38,332 bases of DNA from NCBI GenBank assembly GCA_013003065.1, contig JABDLI010000064.1, positions 1 through 38,332 of the forward strand, given 5' to 3'. The DNA comes from Phycisphaerales bacterium (GTDB lineage Bacteria; Planctomycetota; Phycisphaerae; Phycisphaerales; SM1A02). Under the pieces are notes generated by a model. It saw only the letters and a program-made list of their open reading frames with translations. It did no database searches and was not told the DNA's origin. Shown one piece after another: positions 2,755-38,191 of the stretch (positions are counted from its first letter, which is position 1; the number at the start of each line of letters is the position of its first letter). A program made the position numbers and the translations under genes.

Positions 2755-4136
2755 GCGGGCTCTGGGGCGGGCGCTTCGAGGACGATCCGGATCCGCTCTT
2801 CCGGCGGCTGAACGACTCGTTGCCCTTCGATCGTCACCTGGTGGAGCACGACATCGCCGGTTCCCAGGCGTGGGCCCGCGCGTTGGGTGACGCGGGCGTG
2901 CTGGACGGCGAAGAGACCCGGCGTCTCGTTGCCGGTCTTCAGACGCTGGCCGATGAGGTGCGGGACGATCCCGCGGCGTTGCGGGAGGCGGGCGACGAGG
3001 ATGTCCACTCTTGGGTCGAGCGACGGCTGATCGAGTCGATCGGTGACCTGGGGCGGAAGCTGCACACGGGGCGGAGTCGCAACGACCAGGTCGCGACCGA
3101 CCTGCGACTGTGGGTGCGGGCCGCGATCGCCGAGCGGCGAAGGGAGTTGCGTGCCGCGCAAGCCGCGCTGGTCGCGCTCGGGCAACGATCGGCGGGCGTG
3201 GTCCTTCCCGGGTATACGCATCGGCAGCGTGCGCAGCCGGTCCTGTTCGGTCACTGGTGCCTCGCGTTCGTGGAGATGCTGCGCCGCGACGACACCCGTC
3301 TCATCGACGCCGCGCGTCGCGCCGACGAGTGCCCGCTGGGGTCGGCGGCGCTCGCGGGCACCAGCTTCCCCATCGATCGGATGCGGCTCGCCGCGGCGCT
3401 CGGGTTTCGCGCGCCGACGGCCAACAGCCTGGATGCGGTGTCGGATCGCGATTTCATCATCGAGACGATCGGGGTCGCCTCGCTGTGTGCATCGCACCTC
3501 AGCCGTCTCGCCGACGACCTGATCTTCTTCGCCAGCGGCGAAGCGGACTTCATCGAGCTCGACGACACGATGACCAGCGGCTCGTCGCTGATGCCACAGA
3601 AGAAGAACCCCGACGCGCTCGAGCTCGTGCGGGCCAAGGCCGGGGCGTTGCTCGGGCACCTGACGGCCGTCTCGTGCATCCAGAAGGGTCTGCCGCTCGC
3701 CTACAACAAGGACCTCCAGGAGCTCACGCCGCCCCTCTTCGCCGCCATGGACGATCTGGAGCTGTGTCTCAAGGCGGTGCCCCGCGTGCTCCAGGGCATT
3801 CGCGTCAAGAGCGAGCGGACCCGCCGCGCCGCCGAGGGCGGGTACGCGAACGCGACCGAGCTGGCCGATTACCTCGTCGGACGCGGCATCCCGTTTCGCA
3901 CGGCCCATGATCTCGTGGGACAGATCGTTCGCCACGCGATCGAGCGGGGCGAGCCGCTGGAAGCGTTGCCGCTCGAAGAGCTGCGAACGCTCGCTCCCGC
4001 GATCGAGGCGGACGTGAGCGAGCGGCTGACGCTGGAGACGTTGCTCGCGCGTCGCGATGTGCTCGGCGGCACCGCGCCCGCGCAGGTGGATCGGGCGATG
4101 ACGGCCGCGGCGGCGGAGTTCGCCGTCGGCGGCTGA
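2751..4136 (+). CDS. argH: Argininosuccinate lyase (GTG start overlapping argG stop: GTGA)
   Basis: [45 protein letters not shown]...[24 protein letters not shown]; fumarase/aspartase signature. Confidence 0.97.
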
Positions 4137-6991: not shown

Positions 6992-7013
6992 GGGGGCGAG
7001 AGTGTAGCAGCAC

Positions 7014-7139
7014 GGGCGCGGACACGGACACGGACACGGACACGGACACGGCCGCGGACGCGGACACGGACACGGACGCGGTCGCGGTCGCGGACACGGA
7101 CGCGGGCGCGGGCACGGTCGCGGACGCGGTCGCGGGCAC
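7014..7139. repeat. Hexanucleotide tandem array, 21 consecutive GGNCRC units
   Basis: Read by hand: GGGCGC (GGACAC)5 GGCCGC GGACGC (GGACAC)2 GGACGC (GGTCGC)2 GGACAC GGACGC GGGCGC GGGCAC GGTCGC GGACGC GGTCGC GGGCAC. Confidence 0.95.
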
Positions 7140-7150
7140 CCCGGATCCGC

Positions 7151-10057
7151 TCACCCCGTCCAGCCGCTCAGCACCACCAGCAGGTCGACGAAGTCCACGA
7201 CCCCGTTTCCATCGAAGTCCGCCGGACACGGATCCGGCGGCGGAAGACACGGACCCCACGCCGCGAGGAGCGCGAGCAGATCGGTGAAGCCGACGGAGCC
7301 GTCGCCGTCAACGTCGCCGGGCACGTCGCCGACCGGGCCGAAGCGGACCGTCGCGAAGATCTGCGACGGGTCGACGGGCGCCGTCACGACGTTCTGACCG
7401 GAGCAGGGATCGAGATCGATGATCAGCAGCCCGCCCGCCACGGTCAGACCGCCTTCCGAGGTCGGGCCGGCGATCGGCGAACCCCGCAGGGCGTCGACGG
7501 AGGCGACGAGCCGGTAGTGCCGGTCGGGCTGCAGCAGGATGTTGGTGGGAACGCCGAGGCGGTGGTTGCGGTTGCTCGCAGGAAGCTCCATGCCGGCGAC
7601 GACGACCGGTTCGACCGGGTTGGTCACGTCCCAGAGCGCGAGGTTGCGTGGCGTGCCGTCACAGCTCGTGCCGGGACGGATGATGCCGTCGACGATGACC
7701 TCCCGGACCCGCAGCGGCGTGGTGGCGTCGCCGGTATCCAGGTCGACCCCCACCCACGCGCCGTTGCCGCCGGCGCCGGAGGGATCATCGAGACCGCCGC
7801 TGGGATCCGGAAGCGCGAGCCCGCCGGCCGCGGTGACGAGGAGGGCGGGATCACCGTCGGGCAGATGCTCTTCACCGTCGATCAGCACTCGGCCGGAGCG
7901 GAACACGATGATCTCACGCTCCGCGAGGTCGGCGAGGTTGACATCACCAAGCGCGGAGTTGACGTGCTTGTCCACTCGGCGGAAGCCTTCGGCCGGCAGG
8001 TTGGGGAAATCGATGATCGCATCGAAGTGGACATCCTCGCCGGGGTCACCCGGCGCCGGATCGGCGGGCAACGCGAAGTGCAGCGTGTATTCGTTCTGGT
8101 TGAGGTACCCGTGACCGCTGGCGACGAACTTCTTGCGTCGCATCGAGGCCGGATCGCCGGCGACGACGAGCTCGACGGACGTCGCATACTCGGTCTCGAG
8201 TCCGGCCGGCACGGTCTCGGAGTCGCGGAGCGTTCGAACCCGCACGTAACGCCGATCGTCCATCGGGGTGGAGCCGTCGTAGAGCGTGTTCTCGTAGAAG
8301 TGTCCGACGTCGAACCAGTTGCCGAGCGCGCAGTCGAGATCACCGTCGCGATCCCAGTCGCCCCACGCCGGCGTTGCCGACGTGATGTGGCCGGCCGGGA
8401 TCGACGTCGAGGCTACGGTGAAGTGACGGTCACCGCCGGTCTCCATGAACATGTTGCGGCGGAAGACCTGTCGCGTCGTGAAGTCGATGTCGCCGTCGTT
8501 GTCCCAGTCCTCGGCCGAGAGACCCAGATTCAAACCGGTGAACGCCGAGTCGATGATGTCCCCGGCGGCGAAGTAGGTGCCGTCACCGCGGGCTTCCCAG
8601 ATCTTCACGCCCGGTCCGGTGTAGACGATGGCGAGGTCGTAATCGCCGTCGAGGTCGTAATCGAACAACGCAGCGCCCTCGTCGAGCTGTGTCGACAAAC
8701 CGATGCCCGAGCCGTTCTCCGTCATGGGGTTGAAGAGCGGCGACCCGAGCGACGAGACGTTCTGGTAGAGCGTGCCGTTGCTGTAGAGATCCATGTCGCC
8801 GTCGAAGTCGACGTCGACGAACTGAGCGCCTTCGGGCCGGGCCGCGCCGGGCGGGTTGTCGAGGCCGACCTCGTCCACCCGTTCGGCGAATCGGTACTCG
8901 CCGCCGCTCTCGCCGAGGTTCTCCAGGAAGAAGTTGCCGGAGTTGTCCCCGATCGTGGGCGGGTAGACGGGAATGAACAAATCCAGGTCGCCGTCGCAGT
9001 CGACGTCGCCCCAGCAATTCGTCTCGGCGTCGGCATTACACAGCGGCGTGTCGACGATCGTCGGATCGACCGCCACGTTGAGAAAGACGCTGTCGCCCAG
9101 GTTCTTCAGGATGTGGCAGCACTGGTCCCCCGCGCAGCAGTTCCGCGACTCCGTGGCCATGTCGAGCAGGCCGTCGTTGTTGTAGTCGCCGAACGAGATG
9201 CTGTAGCGGAACTCGGTGGGGGGCAGCTTGTCGTCGAGGTTTGCGGCCAGCACCCAGTCCGTACCGCCGAGGTTCCGCCAGAGGTTCGCGGACTGAAGCG
9301 CAAAGATGTCGATCCACCCGTCCGCGTCGTAGTCGCCGAACACGATCCCGAACGTATCGCCGACCGGCAGACCCGATGGCCACGATCCGCTGGTCCAGAG
9401 CGACAGCGGGACGTCCACGCCATCACCCGCCGACGCGCCGCCGGACGGGCCGGCACCGGCGTCCCGGTAGGAGAGCGTGAGCGACGCCGAGGCGCCCGGC
9501 AGGAGATTGTCGAGCATCCAAAGCTGACGCGCCACGTCGTCGGGGGCCTTCGTCAGGTCGGGGAGATCCCTCGGGAACGTCCAGCCCGTCGTCGGCGGCA
9601 CCCGCCACTCGCGAGAGTAATACAGGTCGGTGACGGGGGCCGCCCCGCGATTCGTGAGCGTGACGGTGACGTGCAGCAAGGTGCCGGTCGCGTCGAACCG
9701 CATGAACGACTCCATCTCGATCGCCTCGTGCCGCACCACGGCAACGGCCGTGGCAGCGCCGGCCGAGAACGACACCGGCGTGACCACGGGCCGCTCATCC
9801 CACGCCGGCTCGCTGCCGGGCGCCACGGCCGCAAAGGTCGCGCCACCGGTCCGGAAGGAGACACCGTACCACTCACCACTCCCGGCTCCGACCGTCAACA
9901 GCGGACCGTCAACGTGCTGCAGCCCCGCCTCCGGTCGTTTCGTGATCACCCCAAACTCGTTGAGACCGACCCGAAAGTGATCGGACCCGATCTCGCTGGC
10001 GTCGGTGGGGACGGTCAGGGCGAGAACGAACGGAACGCAGCAGACGGTACGGATCAT
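7151..10057 (-). CDS. Secreted FG-GAP/VCBS-repeat protein with C-terminal GC-type dockerin-like pair
   Basis: Signal-like N-terminus; repeated FGDYDADGWIDIFAL, FGDYNNDGLLDMA, DVDFDGDMDLYSNG, DWDRDGDLDCALG; C-terminus GDVDGDGSVGFTDLLALLAAWGPCLPPPDPCPADFDGNGVVDFVDLLVVLSGWTG. SD-like GGAG 5' of ATG. Confidence 0.9.
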   Translation of the reverse strand: MIRTVCCVPFVLALTVPTDASEIGSDHFRVGLNEFGVITKRPEAGLQHVDGPLLTVGAGSGEWYGVSFRTGGATFAAVAPGSEPAWDERPVVTPVSFSAGAATAVAVVRHEAIEMESFMRFDATGTLLHVTVTLTNRGAAPVTDLYYSREWRVPPTTGWTFPRDLPDLTKAPDDVARQLWMLDNLLPGASASLTLSYRDAGAGPSGGASAGDGVDVPLSLWTSGSWPSGLPVGDTFGIVFGDYDADGWIDIFALQSANLWRNLGGTDWVLAANLDDKLPPTEFRYSISFGDYNNDGLLDMATESRNCCAGDQCCHILKNLGDSVFLNVAVDPTIVDTPLCNADAETNCWGDVDCDGDLDLFIPVYPPTIGDNSGNFFLENLGESGGEYRFAERVDEVGLDNPPGAARPEGAQFVDVDFDGDMDLYSNGTLYQNVSSLGSPLFNPMTENGSGIGLSTQLDEGAALFDYDLDGDYDLAIVYTGPGVKIWEARGDGTYFAAGDIIDSAFTGLNLGLSAEDWDNDGDIDFTTRQVFRRNMFMETGGDRHFTVASTSIPAGHITSATPAWGDWDRDGDLDCALGNWFDVGHFYENTLYDGSTPMDDRRYVRVRTLRDSETVPAGLETEYATSVELVVAGDPASMRRKKFVASGHGYLNQNEYTLHFALPADPAPGDPGEDVHFDAIIDFPNLPAEGFRRVDKHVNSALGDVNLADLAEREIIVFRSGRVLIDGEEHLPDGDPALLVTAAGGLALPDPSGGLDDPSGAGGNGAWVGVDLDTGDATTPLRVREVIVDGIIRPGTSCDGTPRNLALWDVTNPVEPVVVAGMELPASNRNHRLGVPTNILLQPDRHYRLVASVDALRGSPIAGPTSEGGLTVAGGLLIIDLDPCSGQNVVTAPVDPSQIFATVRFGPVGDVPGDVDGDGSVGFTDLLALLAAWGPCLPPPDPCPADFDGNGVVDFVDLLVVLSGWTG

Positions 10058-10184
10058 TTCTCGACTCCGGTGGGTTGCGTGTACGCGGCCGTTTCACGAT
10101 AGCGGACGTGCGGGATGGAGGGGGCGGAATCCAGGGGGAACGATCGGCCTGTTCGCCGGGCGTTCGTGTGCGAGGACCGAACGC

Positions 10185-10202
10185 GGACACGGACGCGGAC
10201 AC
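10185..10202. repeat. Short GGACRC hexamer array (3 units) of the same family as 7014-7139
   Basis: GGACAC GGACGC GGACAC, followed by degenerate GGGAGC. Confidence 0.7.
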
Positions 10203-10501
10203 GGGAGCGCTCGCTCGCGCTCGCGGTGCGTCAGCGCAAACGCGCCCATCGCGCAATCCCCCGACCCAACCTGCCCGAGGCGGCATGGACGCCGCCGGTC
10301 CCCACGCAGCCTGCACCCGCCGGAGGCGGTGCGAAAAATAGTCCGAACCCACGCTGAAACATCCAGACGCGAGCCCGCAGGATGCGGGCGGTGTATTTGG
10401 GCGTCGGGGCCGGTTTGTGCTTCGCCGCAGGATGCGGCGGATCGTGCGTGGGTCGGTTGAGCGCCGGACGACTCAGCGTACAACGTGCGGTTTCTGAGGC
10501 C

Positions 10502-10570
10502 GAGGGCGGCAGGACGCCGCCCGTGGATGCGCAGGGCGTCCGGAGGTCACCGGCGTGTTTGCGCGGTTGG
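10502..10570. repeat. Direct repeat copy 1 flanking the GGAATK array
   Basis: gagggcggcaggacgccgcccgtggatgcgcagggcgtccggaggtcaccggcgtgtttgcgcggttgg; aligns with 10701-10758 with small gaps. Confidence 0.85.
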
Positions 10571-10579
10571 AGGAGAATT

Positions 10580-10663
10580 GGATTTGGAATGGGAATGGGA
10601 ATGGGAAGGGGAAGTGGAATTGGAATGGGAATTGGAATGGGAAGGCGAAGTGGAATTGGACCC
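10580..10663. repeat. Purine-rich hexamer array (consensus GGAATK, 14 units)
   Basis: GGATTT (GGAATG)3 GGAAGG GGAAGT GGAATT GGAATG GGAATT GGAATG GGAAGG CGAAGT GGAATT GGACCC; the 24-bp block GGAATGGGAAGG[G/C]GAAGTGGAATT recurs at 36 bp spacing. Confidence 0.9.
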
Positions 10664-10700
10664 GGAGAACGGGGACCCGGGGAATCTGAATTGGAATTCG

Positions 10701-10758
10701 GAGGGCGGCAGGACGCCGTGGAAGCACAGGACGTCCGGAGGTCACCGTGCGCGGTTGG
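10701..10758. repeat. Direct repeat copy 2 flanking the GGAATK array
   Basis: gagggcggcaggacgccgtggaagcacaggacgtccggaggtcaccgtgcgcggttgg. Confidence 0.85.
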
Positions 10759-10775
10759 GGCATCCAGCCGGTCCG

Positions 10776-11114
10776 TCATCGACGTGTCCCCGATCCGTGG
10801 ATCACCCGCGGACGCCAACGGAATCGCTTCAGATCGATCCGCCCGTTCGCTTCGAATCGAACGCCTTCCGCGACCAGCCTCTCCTGCTGGCCGTGGTCGT
10901 CGCCGGTCTGCGTCCGCACGCTGACTGCTCCCTGCGCGTTGACGACCCGGTGCCACGGCACCCGATCGTCCTCGAGCGCGCTCAACGCGTACCCGACCTG
11001 GCGGGCGTGCGGGCCAAGGCCCGCGAGCTCGGCGATCTGGCCGTAGGTCGCCACGCGACCACGCGGGATGCGGCGAACGACGGCGTAGACACGAGCGTTG
11101 CGACCTGGCGGCAC
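10776..11114 (-). CDS. Alkyltransferase-like (ATL) protein of the MGMT C-terminal fold, PWHRV in place of PCHRV
   Basis: VYAVVRRIPRGRVATYGQIAELAGLGPHARQVGYALSALEDDRVPWHRVVNAQGAVS; GTG start. Confidence 0.9.
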   Translation of the reverse strand: MPPGRNARVYAVVRRIPRGRVATYGQIAELAGLGPHARQVGYALSALEDDRVPWHRVVNAQGAVSVRTQTGDDHGQQERLVAEGVRFEANGRIDLKRFRWRPRVIHGSGTRR

Positions 11115-34315: not shown

Positions 34316-37300
34316 ATGAAACCCCTGCTTCATCTCGCAGCGACGATCGCCGCCTCGGCCGCGGCATTACTCGGCCGACCGGCGTCCGGGCAATCGCTTC
34401 CGAGCGGCGCGGACACCGACTGCGCCGACGTGACGGTCGACGGCCACACGATGACGATCACGCAGCTCACGCCCGGGTGCATCATCGACTGGGCCGCCTT
34501 CGGTATCGGCGGTGGCTACGCGGTCGAGTTCATCCAGGGCGATGCGTGGCGGGTGCTCAACCGGGTCTCGGGGGCCGACGCATCGGAGATCGCCGGCGTC
34601 TTGAACGCGTCGGGCACGGTGTACTTGGTCAACCCCGCCGGCGTCGTCTTCACCGGCTCCGCCGTCGTCAACGTCGGCGGGCTCTACGCCGCGGCCGCGT
34701 CGCTCACCGACGACGATTTCGCCGCCGGCATCGATCGGTTCACGAACCCGACGGACAAAGTCGTCAACCAGGGCTCGATCACGGCGTCGGCCGTTCACCT
34801 GATCGGTGACCGGATCGCCAACTTCGGTGAGATCTCCGCCGGGGACGGCGTGGTCACGTTGCTCGCGGGCGAGAACGAGGTGTTCATCGGCGAGGCCGAC
34901 GGTCGGGTGCTCGTTCGCATCGACGGCGTCGAACTCCGGGACGACACGAGCGTCGCAACGGGACCGGCCGTCCCCACCACCGCCGGGCTGGCCGGCGTCG
35001 AGAACAGCGGTACGATCGACGCCGCGGGTGGAGAGGTCATTCTGGGTGTGGGCGACATGTACGCGCTGGCGATCCGCAGCGCGGGCACCATCAACGCGGC
35101 CGGCGGATCAACCCAGCTCGCCGCCCTCGGCGGCACCGTGCACCATCGGGGAGCACTGCAGACCGGCACGCTCAACGTCACGGGTGAAGCGATCTTTCTC
35201 GAGTCGGACATCCACGCCGACACTGCGCGTTTCAACGATCCCGTCATCATCGGCGCCGACGTCCGCATCGACGGGGAGGACGGGGATGCGGCCGACAGCG
35301 TGCACTTCGCGTCCACCGTCGACGACGCGGACGATGCCACGCACCGACTGGAGATCGACGCAACGCAGAGCACGTTCGACGGAGATGTCGGTGGCGAGCG
35401 CCGGCTTCACACGCTCGAGACAACGGGCGGGGCGACGATCGCCGGCGATGTCGACACGGCCGCGGGCATCGTCGTCGGCGGCTCCGCGCTGCTCACCGGG
35501 TCGGAGACGCAGACGCTGGATGCGGGCGCCGGGCATCTCCAGATCGGTGGCAACGCGAGCAAGGTCACCGGCGGCGACCTCGTTCTCCGCGCCAGCGACA
35601 CCGTGGCCGTCGGCGGAACCGTCAGCGTGACCTTCGGATCGGTGACCGTGGACGGCGATGCGGTGATCGGCGGCGACGTGACGGCCGGCACCGACGTCAT
35701 GGTGACCGGAGCGGCCGACATCGACGGCGACGCGTTGGCCGGCCGCGACGTGATCATCGACGGCGACGCGACGCTCGCCGGCGACGTGCTGGCGGGCCGC
35801 GACCTGACGCTCGGGGGCGACACGACGCTCGACGGCAGCAGCGCCCAGGCGATGCGGGCCAGCACCGGCCGCATCGACGCGAGCGGCGACATCCGGAAGA
35901 TCGGAGGCGGGACCCTGCTCGTGCAGGCCGCCGACGCGATCGACGTTGGCGGCGACGTCACCGTGGCCACCACGAGCGGCAGCGGCAACCTGAGCCTCGC
36001 CGCCCCGGTCATGGCGATCGGCGGAGACGTCAGCGCGACCGGCACCGTCCTCACCAGTGGCGCTCTCGACGTCGGCGGCAATCTCAGTGCCGGCGTCGAC
36101 GCACGTCTGAACGGCGATGCCATCGTGGGCGGCAGCGTCACGACGGGCGACGACGCGCTCTTTTTCGGTGCGGCGAACGTCGGCGGCGACGTCACGGCCA
36201 ACGGCGACGTGACGTTCGCGGGGTTGACCGCGGTCATCGGCAGCGTCGACGCCGGCTCCGATGCGAGCTTCTCCGGCACCACGACGGTCGCCGGCGACGT
36301 GAGCGCCGGCCGCGACGTCGAGTTCGCCGCGGACGCCACCATCGGCGGGAGCGTTCACGCCGGCGACGATGCCATCTTTTTCGGCGCCGCCGACGTGGGC
36401 GGCAACGTCACCGCCATCGCCGACGCCGAATTCTCGGGCGCTGCCGTCATCGGCGGCGACGTGACCACCGGCGAGGACCTGGACTTCCTGGGCGCGGCCG
36501 ACATCGGCGGCAACGTCGCGGCGGGCGAGGACGTGATCTTCTCGTCCGCGGCCGACGTCGGGGGCGATGTCGCGGCGGGCGATGACGCCACGTTCTTCGG
36601 CGCCGCCTCCATCGGCGGTTCGCTGAACACCATCGGCGACATCGAATTCCACCGTGTGGCGGAGGTGGGCGGGTCGGTCTCGGCGGGAGAGGACGTCGAT
36701 TTCTTCGACGATGCCGTCGTGGGCGGCGACATCGTCACGGGTGACGATGTCCTCTTCGCCGCCGGCGCCGACATCGGCGGCAGCATCACGGCGTTCGATG
36801 ACGTGGAGTTCTTCGACGACGCCACCGTGGGAGGGAGCATCACGGCCGGTGACGACATTCAGTTCTTCGGCGAAGCCGAGGTCGACGGCGATCTCGTCGC
36901 GGGTGACGACGTCGAGTTCGCCCAGCGGGCGTTGCTCGGTGGCAGCATCACCGCGTACGACGACGTGAAGTTCGACGGCCCGGCTGTCTTTCTCGGTACG
37001 GGCACCCAGCGCATCGAGGCGGTGACCGGCGTGCTCCGCGCCCGTGGCGTGATCCGGAAGACGACCGCCGGCACGCTGGAGCTGTTCGGCCCGAGGCTCA
37101 TCCTCAACGGCGGCGAGGTCACGGCGCTCGACGACGTGCTTCTCAATCCCGCCGGCCGCGTCGTCCCATCGCCGGTCGCCACGATCACCGCGCAGTCCAA
37201 CCTGATCATCCGTTCCGAGCTGGGCCACGTGCGAATGGGCGCCGGGGAGAAGCTCGCCGTCCAGGGCGACCTGACGATCGAGGCCGGCGGCACCGCCACG

Positions 37301-38191
37301 CTCGGCGATGTGAGCACGCGTGGCGACATGACGGTGCTCGCGCAGGAGATCGTCCTGCTCCGCCGCGCGGCGGCGAGCGTCCTCGATGCCGGTGGATCGC
37401 TCGTGCCCGACGACGGCGTGGACTACGTCGCCGGGGGCCGGTTCTTCTTCAGCGTGATCCCCTCCCTCGGCGGCGGCGGCCCCACGCCGGTCTTCGGTTC
37501 ACGACGCGTCGATGCGGACGCCCTGGGCACGCTCGGCGCTTTCCGGCTGCGGATCATCGTGCCGTTCGGCAACGACCTGTTCCGTTCCGGCGACACGCTC
37601 CTCGATCTGCGGGCCACCGGCCCGACCGTGAGCGATCTCGCCGTCGCGTACTCCGCCGGCGCTGGTGACCCGGCCGCCGGGCGACGCGTCCGCACGGCGG
37701 CCACGGATGCTGCGTCCGCGCAGGCCAGCCTCCAGCCGCTGGGCGTCGCGGTGCGTGCGCTCGACCCCGCCGCCCCGACATCGATCGTCGATGATCTGCC
37801 GGCCAGCGCCGAGTGGGCGACGGCATCACCGAGCCTCTCCGTTCTTCGGCTCGATGCGGACGCCGTGACCGCCGTGGTCGACGCGTACACCGCCCTGCTG
37901 GGAACGCCGGCGGAGGCGGCATCCGCCCGCGCGGCACTCGACGCGGCCTGGGCCGCCTACCGACGCACCGAGCCTTCGCCCGACGGGCCGGGCTTCCGCC
38001 GTTTCGTGACCAACCCCGCTCACGCCGACGCCGCGGCGACGCTCGACCGATTGGCGACGCTCTCGCGGGCCATGCTGGTGATGGGCGCGAACCAGACCGA
38101 GATGATCTCGGCCCGCCGCCGGCTGCTCCGGGTGTTGCGGCCCGAGGCGATACGCCGGCGTGATCTGGAGACCGCAATCGACGCCGGTTGA
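34316..38191 (+). CDS. Filamentous-haemagglutinin-like TpsA exoprotein with TPS domain
   Basis: Signal-like MKPLLHLAATIAASAAALLGRPASGQ; DVTVDGHTMTITQLTPGCIIDWAAFGIGGGYAVEFIQGDAWRVLNRVSGADASEIAGVLNASGTVYLVNPAGVVFTGSAVVNVGGLYAAAASL; long beta-helical repeat region; immediately downstream of tpsB-like gene. Confidence 0.9.
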   Translation: MKPLLHLAATIAASAAALLGRPASGQSLPSGADTDCADVTVDGHTMTITQLTPGCIIDWAAFGIGGGYAVEFIQGDAWRVLNRVSGADASEIAGVLNASGTVYLVNPAGVVFTGSAVVNVGGLYAAAASLTDDDFAAGIDRFTNPTDKVVNQGSITASAVHLIGDRIANFGEISAGDGVVTLLAGENEVFIGEADGRVLVRIDGVELRDDTSVATGPAVPTTAGLAGVENSGTIDAAGGEVILGVGDMYALAIRSAGTINAAGGSTQLAALGGTVHHRGALQTGTLNVTGEAIFLESDIHADTARFNDPVIIGADVRIDGEDGDAADSVHFASTVDDADDATHRLEIDATQSTFDGDVGGERRLHTLETTGGATIAGDVDTAAGIVVGGSALLTGSETQTLDAGAGHLQIGGNASKVTGGDLVLRASDTVAVGGTVSVTFGSVTVDGDAVIGGDVTAGTDVMVTGAADIDGDALAGRDVIIDGDATLAGDVLAGRDLTLGGDTTLDGSSAQAMRASTGRIDASGDIRKIGGGTLLVQAADAIDVGGDVTVATTSGSGNLSLAAPVMAIGGDVSATGTVLTSGALDVGGNLSAGVDARLNGDAIVGGSVTTGDDALFFGAANVGGDVTANGDVTFAGLTAVIGSVDAGSDASFSGTTTVAGDVSAGRDVEFAADATIGGSVHAGDDAIFFGAADVGGNVTAIADAEFSGAAVIGGDVTTGEDLDFLGAADIGGNVAAGEDVIFSSAADVGGDVAAGDDATFFGAASIGGSLNTIGDIEFHRVAEVGGSVSAGEDVDFFDDAVVGGDIVTGDDVLFAAGADIGGSITAFDDVEFFDDATVGGSITAGDDIQFFGEAEVDGDLVAGDDVEFAQRALLGGSITAYDDVKFDGPAVFLGTGTQRIEAVTGVLRARGVIRKTTAGTLELFGPRLILNGGEVTALDDVLLNPAGRVVPSPVATITAQSNLIIRSELGHVRMGAGEKLAVQGDLTIEAGGTATLGDVSTRGDMTVLAQEIVLLRRAAASVLDAGGSLVPDDGVDYVAGGRFFFSVIPSLGGGGPTPVFGSRRVDADALGTLGAFRLRIIVPFGNDLFRSGDTLLDLRATGPTVSDLAVAYSAGAGDPAAGRRVRTAATDAASAQASLQPLGVAVRALDPAAPTSIVDDLPASAEWATASPSLSVLRLDADAVTAVVDAYTALLGTPAEAASARAALDAAWAAYRRTEPSPDGPGFRRFVTNPAHADAAATLDRLATLSRAMLVMGANQTEMISARRRLLRVLRPEAIRRRDLETAIDAG
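36017..36988 (+). repeat. 18 consecutive 54-bp (18-aa) in-frame repeats within the TpsA-like gene
   Basis: Consensus [IV]GG[DSN]hxAGDDhxFFGAA[DE], counted from IGGDVSATGTVLTSGALD through LGGSITAYDDVKFDGPAV. Confidence 0.93.

Follow-up and report, generated by a model that had tools for sequence, protein, structure and literature searches.

The GTAG- and CGTC-tagged REPs are short intergenic palindromes present in many copies, which form tandem or inverted groups, expand in a lineage-specific way and prefer convergent and unidirectional gaps (PMC3733652). BIME and REPIN clusters combine palindromes, inverted at times, with intervening sequence. The hairpins associated with class 3 TnpA carry a CnGA foot and have been described in Planctomycetes and Acidobacteria, and Y---NP is the signature of the class 2 Y1 proteins (PMC6006769). 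Hairpins with GGA loops are also known from regulatory RNA. The loops of CsrB hairpins present CAGGA(U/A/C)G, the ANGGAN hexaloop has been described for RsmE, and the hairpins selected for CsrA by SELEX mostly have four or fewer contiguous pairs. CsrA is antagonised by the protein FliW, which is missing from Gammaproteobacteria, where CsrB-family RNAs are widespread (PMC7652899).

The locus described here comes from the genome of a Phycisphaerales bacterium and lies in a window of 38,332 nucleotides, the whole stretch of DNA that was analysed. It has the traits listed above for the tagged REPs and for the BIME/REPIN clusters. As with the class 3 TnpA hairpins, its units are high-copy, belong to the same part of the tree and often have a foot ending in GA, and several of its hairpins present the CAGGAYG or ANGGAN loops of the CsrB/RsmZ sRNAs. 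The first-pass annotation had proposed a CsrB/RsmZ-like decoy RNA or, alternatively, a REP-like family. We consider it quite probable that the region belongs, as one copy among many, to a family of non-coding intergenic repeats of the REP/BIME kind.

The repeat in the window and in its own genome

The features of the locus are displayed in Table 1. All six hairpins of the first-pass annotation are present, and their location is non-coding as it had claimed. The sixth is weak: it belongs to the partial second module, where the stem is reduced to 4 bp, CGGC(AGGAC)GCCG at 10706-10718. The CAGGACG motif and the GGA-rich purine array were also found as described, the latter being a real tandem array whose length differs from copy to copy. 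The leading module is common to only part of the copies and its left border is ragged, while the hairpin type of 10504..10522 is the most frequent unit in the fetched loci of this genome. According to the open reading frames and gene calls, the element is flanked by two minus-strand genes; its GGA strand is the + strand, thus antisense to both. The dockerin of one flanking protein points to an origin in Planctomycetota, Phycisphaerae.

Table 1. Features of the element and its surroundings in the window.
Feature	Position	Strand	Basis or context
CGGACR hexamer array	7011..7139	+	in intergenic gap 6992-7150
Gene: FG-GAP repeat protein with C-terminal dockerin	7151..10057	-	element upstream of its start
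Intergenic region with the element	10058..10775		open reading frames, gene calls, context
Leading module: short CGGACR hexamer array and GGGAGCGCTCGCTCGCGCTCGCGG	10171..10243	+	copy alignments
Hairpin GGCGGC(ATGGAC)GCCGCC, CCGA directly before	10279..10296	+	read from the sequence
Hairpin CCGCC(GGA)GGCGG	10317..10329	+	read from the sequence
Hairpin GCCCGC(AGGAT)GCGGGC	10373..10389	+	read from the sequence
Hairpin CGCCGC(AGGAT)GCGGCG	10423..10439	+	read from the sequence
Hairpin GGGCGGC(AGGAC)GCCGCCC, CCGA directly before	10504..10522	+	read from the sequence
Purine tandem array, GGAATG/GGAATT units	10575..10663	+	tandem-array reading
Partial second copy of the 10502-10570 module	10701..10758	+	sequence comparison
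CAGGACG motif	10727-10733	+	read from the sequence
Gene: DNA-binding domain, O6-methylguanine methyltransferase type	10776..11114	-	element beyond its 3' end

The hexamer array at 7011-7139 occupies the whole space between two genes of the minus strand, and many copies of the element elsewhere in the genome are preceded by such an array. At 34316-38191 the window also encodes a large protein whose N-terminal domain is of the filamentous-hemagglutinin type (TIGR01901) and which contains internal tandem repeats.

The hairpin cluster represents a dispersed repeat of which this genome carries copies at dozens of sites. At least 49 local matches to 10270-10770 were obtained, a minimum because 30 of the 225 candidate places were scored, and the best of them extend over almost all of the query, with 80-94% identity. 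A count of hundreds of scattered hairpins had been named beforehand as support for REP-like repeats over a decoy RNA, and this is what the genome holds: 187 matches to the hairpin GGCGGCAGGACGCCGCC with at most one mismatch (1 for the reversed control), 213 to CGCAGGAYGCG (16 for the control) and 243 to SGGCAGGAYGCCS (10 for the control). With this last pattern, the genome is an extreme outlier among 294 genomes of the phylum.

Concerning the build of the repeat, 68 stretches of the genome were fetched piecewise, and the statistics rest on loci selected for carrying it. Across 34 copies, the core can be aligned over approximately 340 nt, and the hairpins belong to its best-conserved parts. The family consists of mosaic blocks of approximately 0.3-0.6 kb, in which several short GC-rich palindromes are combined with purine-rich simple arrays; copies have ragged borders, their purine arrays vary, and a CGGACR hexamer array is frequently found in front. 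A second, related element type is made of tandem units of approximately 408 bp, and in one convergent gap (L059:310-2030) two forward and two reversed units are found together. Hence, in contrast to the tagged REPs, the units are parts of a longer mosaic that also includes simple arrays; in contrast to BIMEs and REPINs, they mostly run head-to-tail on one strand, with periods of approximately 0.4 kb in the tandem type, and present no defined paired-REP unit. Neither the sharp termini nor the target-site duplications of a classical transposon or MITE were seen in the copy alignments, where the borders are ragged, with no empty site for comparison. It should be noted that many contigs begin or finish within the repeat, that is, the assembly breaks at the repeats.

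Outside this genome, the core was absent from approximately 150 genomes of the same family, save for matches of 27-39 nt. Phages and plasmids gave no match to the core, and viral contigs no exact 24-mer match. The element also has a close copy on contig JABDJC010000111.1 (L039:1-700), which is labelled as part of an Acidimicrobiia MAG. Since the genome to which this contig is assigned has no more than six matches to the hairpin pattern, and the neighbouring genes on the contig have no close match in the genome under study, it is probably, although unproven, a misbinned contig from a relative.

Loops, stems and feet of the hairpins

The peculiarity of the family is a near-constant GGA loop (GC-AGGAY-GC) on stems that vary by paired substitutions, a constancy across differing stems which also distinguishes it from the tagged REPs. 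The loops found are AGGAC, AGGAT, ATGGAC, AAGGAC and ACGAC, closed by ...GC/GC..., and the outer stems are highly varied. Among the perfect 6-bp hairpins in 306 kb of loci from this genome, chosen for holding the repeat, AGGAC (120) and GGA (AGGAT) (116) were by far the most frequent loops; the density of hairpins is far above chance because of the repetition. Another frequent hairpin in the fetched loci of the genome is ACGGAC-GCTTCGCT-GTCCGT, with 22 copies.

The stems had been called covariation-like in the first-pass annotation, and this holds more strongly with the copies at hand. At the position of the 10373-10389 hairpin, the stems GCCCGC, GGCGGC and GCCGGC interchange with perfect pairing, the homologues showing GGCGGC/GCCGCC or GCCGGC/GCCGGC. 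In the 19 distinct sequences of this position, 100% of the cells are paired, two pairs are altered on both sides, and the covariation score was reached by no shuffle, with few independent events because the copies are related. At other positions the loop is not fully fixed. At the position of 10279..10296 (n = 49), ATGGAC was found in 28 copies, ACGAC in 11 and AGGAC in 7, and ACGAC replaces GGA at two hairpin positions (11/49 and 16/64, together 27/113). The asymmetry of wobble pairs, G:T versus A:C, was 4 versus 20 for AGGAC and 10 versus 16 for AGGAT; wobble cells are too scarce to settle the transcribed strand, and such as there are lean, if at all, against the GGA strand.

Regarding the feet, NCNA stands immediately 5' of 320 of the 417 hairpins (6% in the background), CGA was found in 211 and CnGA in 97 (CCGA 88, CGGA 9; 2% in the background), all drawn from related copies and therefore from non-independent events. 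GTAG or GTGG was found before none of the 417, and CGTC was not among the commonest feet listed. The NCNA foot resembles that of REPs, yet it is neither GTAG nor CGTC, being mostly NCGA or CCCA-like.

Other members of the phylum carry an amplified hairpin of another kind that shares this loop, mostly CACGGGC(AGGAT)GCCCGTG. Searching 392 genomes with ACGGGCAGGAYGCCCGT gave 25 copies in G201, 10 in G307, 5 in G177, no more than two in each of nine others and one in the genome under study, while the reversed control gave two in all. The surroundings of this hairpin are unrelated to the element of the window (L096, L099, L129, L131, L135 and others). The shared loop may reflect common descent of a hairpin unit or convergence on the loop. 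Genome G201 also has a hairpin, CACGGACG...CGTCCGTG, similar to the ACGGAC/GTCCGT one and located beside an AGGAT hairpin. Two other genomes considered as hosts of AGGAY hairpins (G017 and G170) were discarded, as their matches look like coding coincidences. In the open-licence literature, no publication was found on such a loop-defined hairpin family. It could be that unrelated intergenic repeats in several lineages of the phylum converge on GC-AGGAY-GC with free stems, because the loop is recognised by a single protein that promotes or takes advantage of their amplification, be it a nuclease that processes hairpins or an RNA-binding protein such as CsrA. We regard this explanation as rather doubtful.

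Placement relative to genes and possible functions

Genes were called with a simple codon-usage caller written for this analysis. Hairpins with AGGAN, ANGGAN or ACGAC loops are almost all intergenic (424 of 435). The survey of gaps comprised 34 gaps bounded by two called genes, each with at least two hairpins: 18 were convergent, 15 co-directional and only 1 divergent, versus 7, 14 and 20, respectively, for the remaining gaps of 150 bp or more (convergent versus divergent, Fisher test, p = 3e-6). This preference matches the one published for REPs. The GGA strand does not favour the mRNA strand: it is sense in 6 co-directional gaps and antisense in 9 (37 and 53 hairpins, respectively), and both strands carry hairpins in 6 of the 34 gaps.

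The proximity to gene 3' ends, with a median of 126 bp versus 212 bp to a 5' end, could suggest that the blocks are retained as terminators or mRNA 3'-end protectors, separating convergent genes or shielding transcripts. Palindromes function on both strands and the stems are conserved, which speaks for such a role. Nevertheless, the hairpins are not followed by T-runs, terminator-like sites do not exceed chance (1 versus 0.8 expected), the convergent gaps that lack it are short, with a median of 21 bp, and evidently do not need it, and relatives do not have it. A role of this kind is therefore unlikely.

The loops could also be read by CsrA. No csrA gene lies inside the window, as the first-pass annotation said, but the genome itself has two; one of them, which encodes the longer product with L4, R6 and R44 retained, adjoins fliW. 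One element copy (L079, contig C142, 1592-2031) is located approximately 2 kb from a csrA gene (3802-3957 of the same contig), which may well be chance because the copies are so numerous. Without any gene of their own, the hundreds of CsrA-type GGA loops could act as a distributed sponge in read-through mRNA 3' ends, titrating CsrA or another RNA-binding protein. In convergent gaps the GGA strand is read by one of the two flanking genes, and the loop is retained as the stems change. Sense hairpins are not in excess in the co-directional gaps, however, and ACGAC loops are frequent, which makes such a sponge decidedly unlikely.

The decoy RNA of the first-pass annotation, a dedicated + strand ncRNA whose GGA loops would sequester CsrA dimers, is highly improbable. 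Its loops do fit CsrA/RsmE sites (ATGGAC and AAGGAC match ANGGAN exactly), but unlike the CsrB/RsmZ sRNAs the element is dispersed in many copies and both orientations, its GGA strand is not biased towards mRNA sense, GGA gives way to ACGAC in the proportion given above, and the stems have 5-7 GC pairs instead of the four or fewer of most SELEX hairpins. A consensus sigma70 scan found no promoter in the element, terminators are no more frequent than by chance, and the + strand folds no better than its shuffles (z-score of -0.83 versus -2.37 for the - strand). Rfam 15, in gathering and E-value modes, gave no match to a Csr or Rsm family and nothing relevant; a match to a plant microRNA in L059 (E = 0.0009) was under the gathering cut-off of its family and was taken as chance on an inverted repeat. 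The presence of csrA does not rescue this reading because one csrA adjoins fliW, whereas CsrB-type RNAs have been described in Gammaproteobacteria, which lack fliW. Readings as attC sites of an integron or as CRISPR were dropped as no such pattern was seen, without a dedicated search.

Spread of the repeat and its meaning

The REP-like alternative of the first-pass annotation is the one borne out, by copy number, intergenic placement and its bias towards convergent and co-directional gaps, although outside the published GTAG and CGTC families. The repeat occupies dozens of loci, is restricted to this lineage and is arranged both in tandem and inverted; its stems stay paired while changing, it avoids divergent (promoter) gaps and it does not prefer the mRNA strand. 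Against classical REPs stand the lack of a GTAG/GTGG foot, the long composite element and the ragged borders; nor was a REPtron seen at the places described below.

If the region is a REP/BIME-like repeat, its copies would multiply as DNA, either by a single-strand-processing enzyme acting on the hairpins, for example an HUH/Y1 transposase, or by template switching together with recombination between copies. Two genes for Y1 transposases exist in the genome, and their products have an HMH or HLH motif together with the class 2 signature. No class 3 TnpA with the Y----Q signature was found in this genome, which is 93.7% complete. In contrast to the class 3 TnpA hairpins, only 97 of the 417 hairpins fit CnGA, and neither Y1 gene was found beside the repeat. 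No AGGAY hairpin was present within the 3 kb fetched around one of the genes, and neither Y1 contig was among the exact matches listed for the commonest hairpin, so that the spread of the repeat by a Y1 (HUH) transposase is only a guess. Likewise, a REPtron, that is, a RAYT gene flanked by the repeat, was not seen in the one Y1 neighbourhood and the listed exact matches, in an assembly that breaks at the repeats.

Copies of the repeat may persist at gene 3' ends because they are least harmful there, and any effects on mRNA 3' ends, such as exonuclease slowing or transcript termination, would come second. As for the near-constant loop, it is best taken as the mark of a processor of single-stranded hairpins, or as inherited from one ancestral hairpin whose stem drifts by paired changes.

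These results clear away a misleading candidate for a CsrB-type RNA outside Gammaproteobacteria and document REP-like repeats whose distinguishing mark is the loop instead of a known terminal tag. The repeat also helps to account for where the assembly breaks. Moreover, since the stems swap by paired changes while the loop stays mostly constant, the family offers natural material to find the protein that reads such hairpins.
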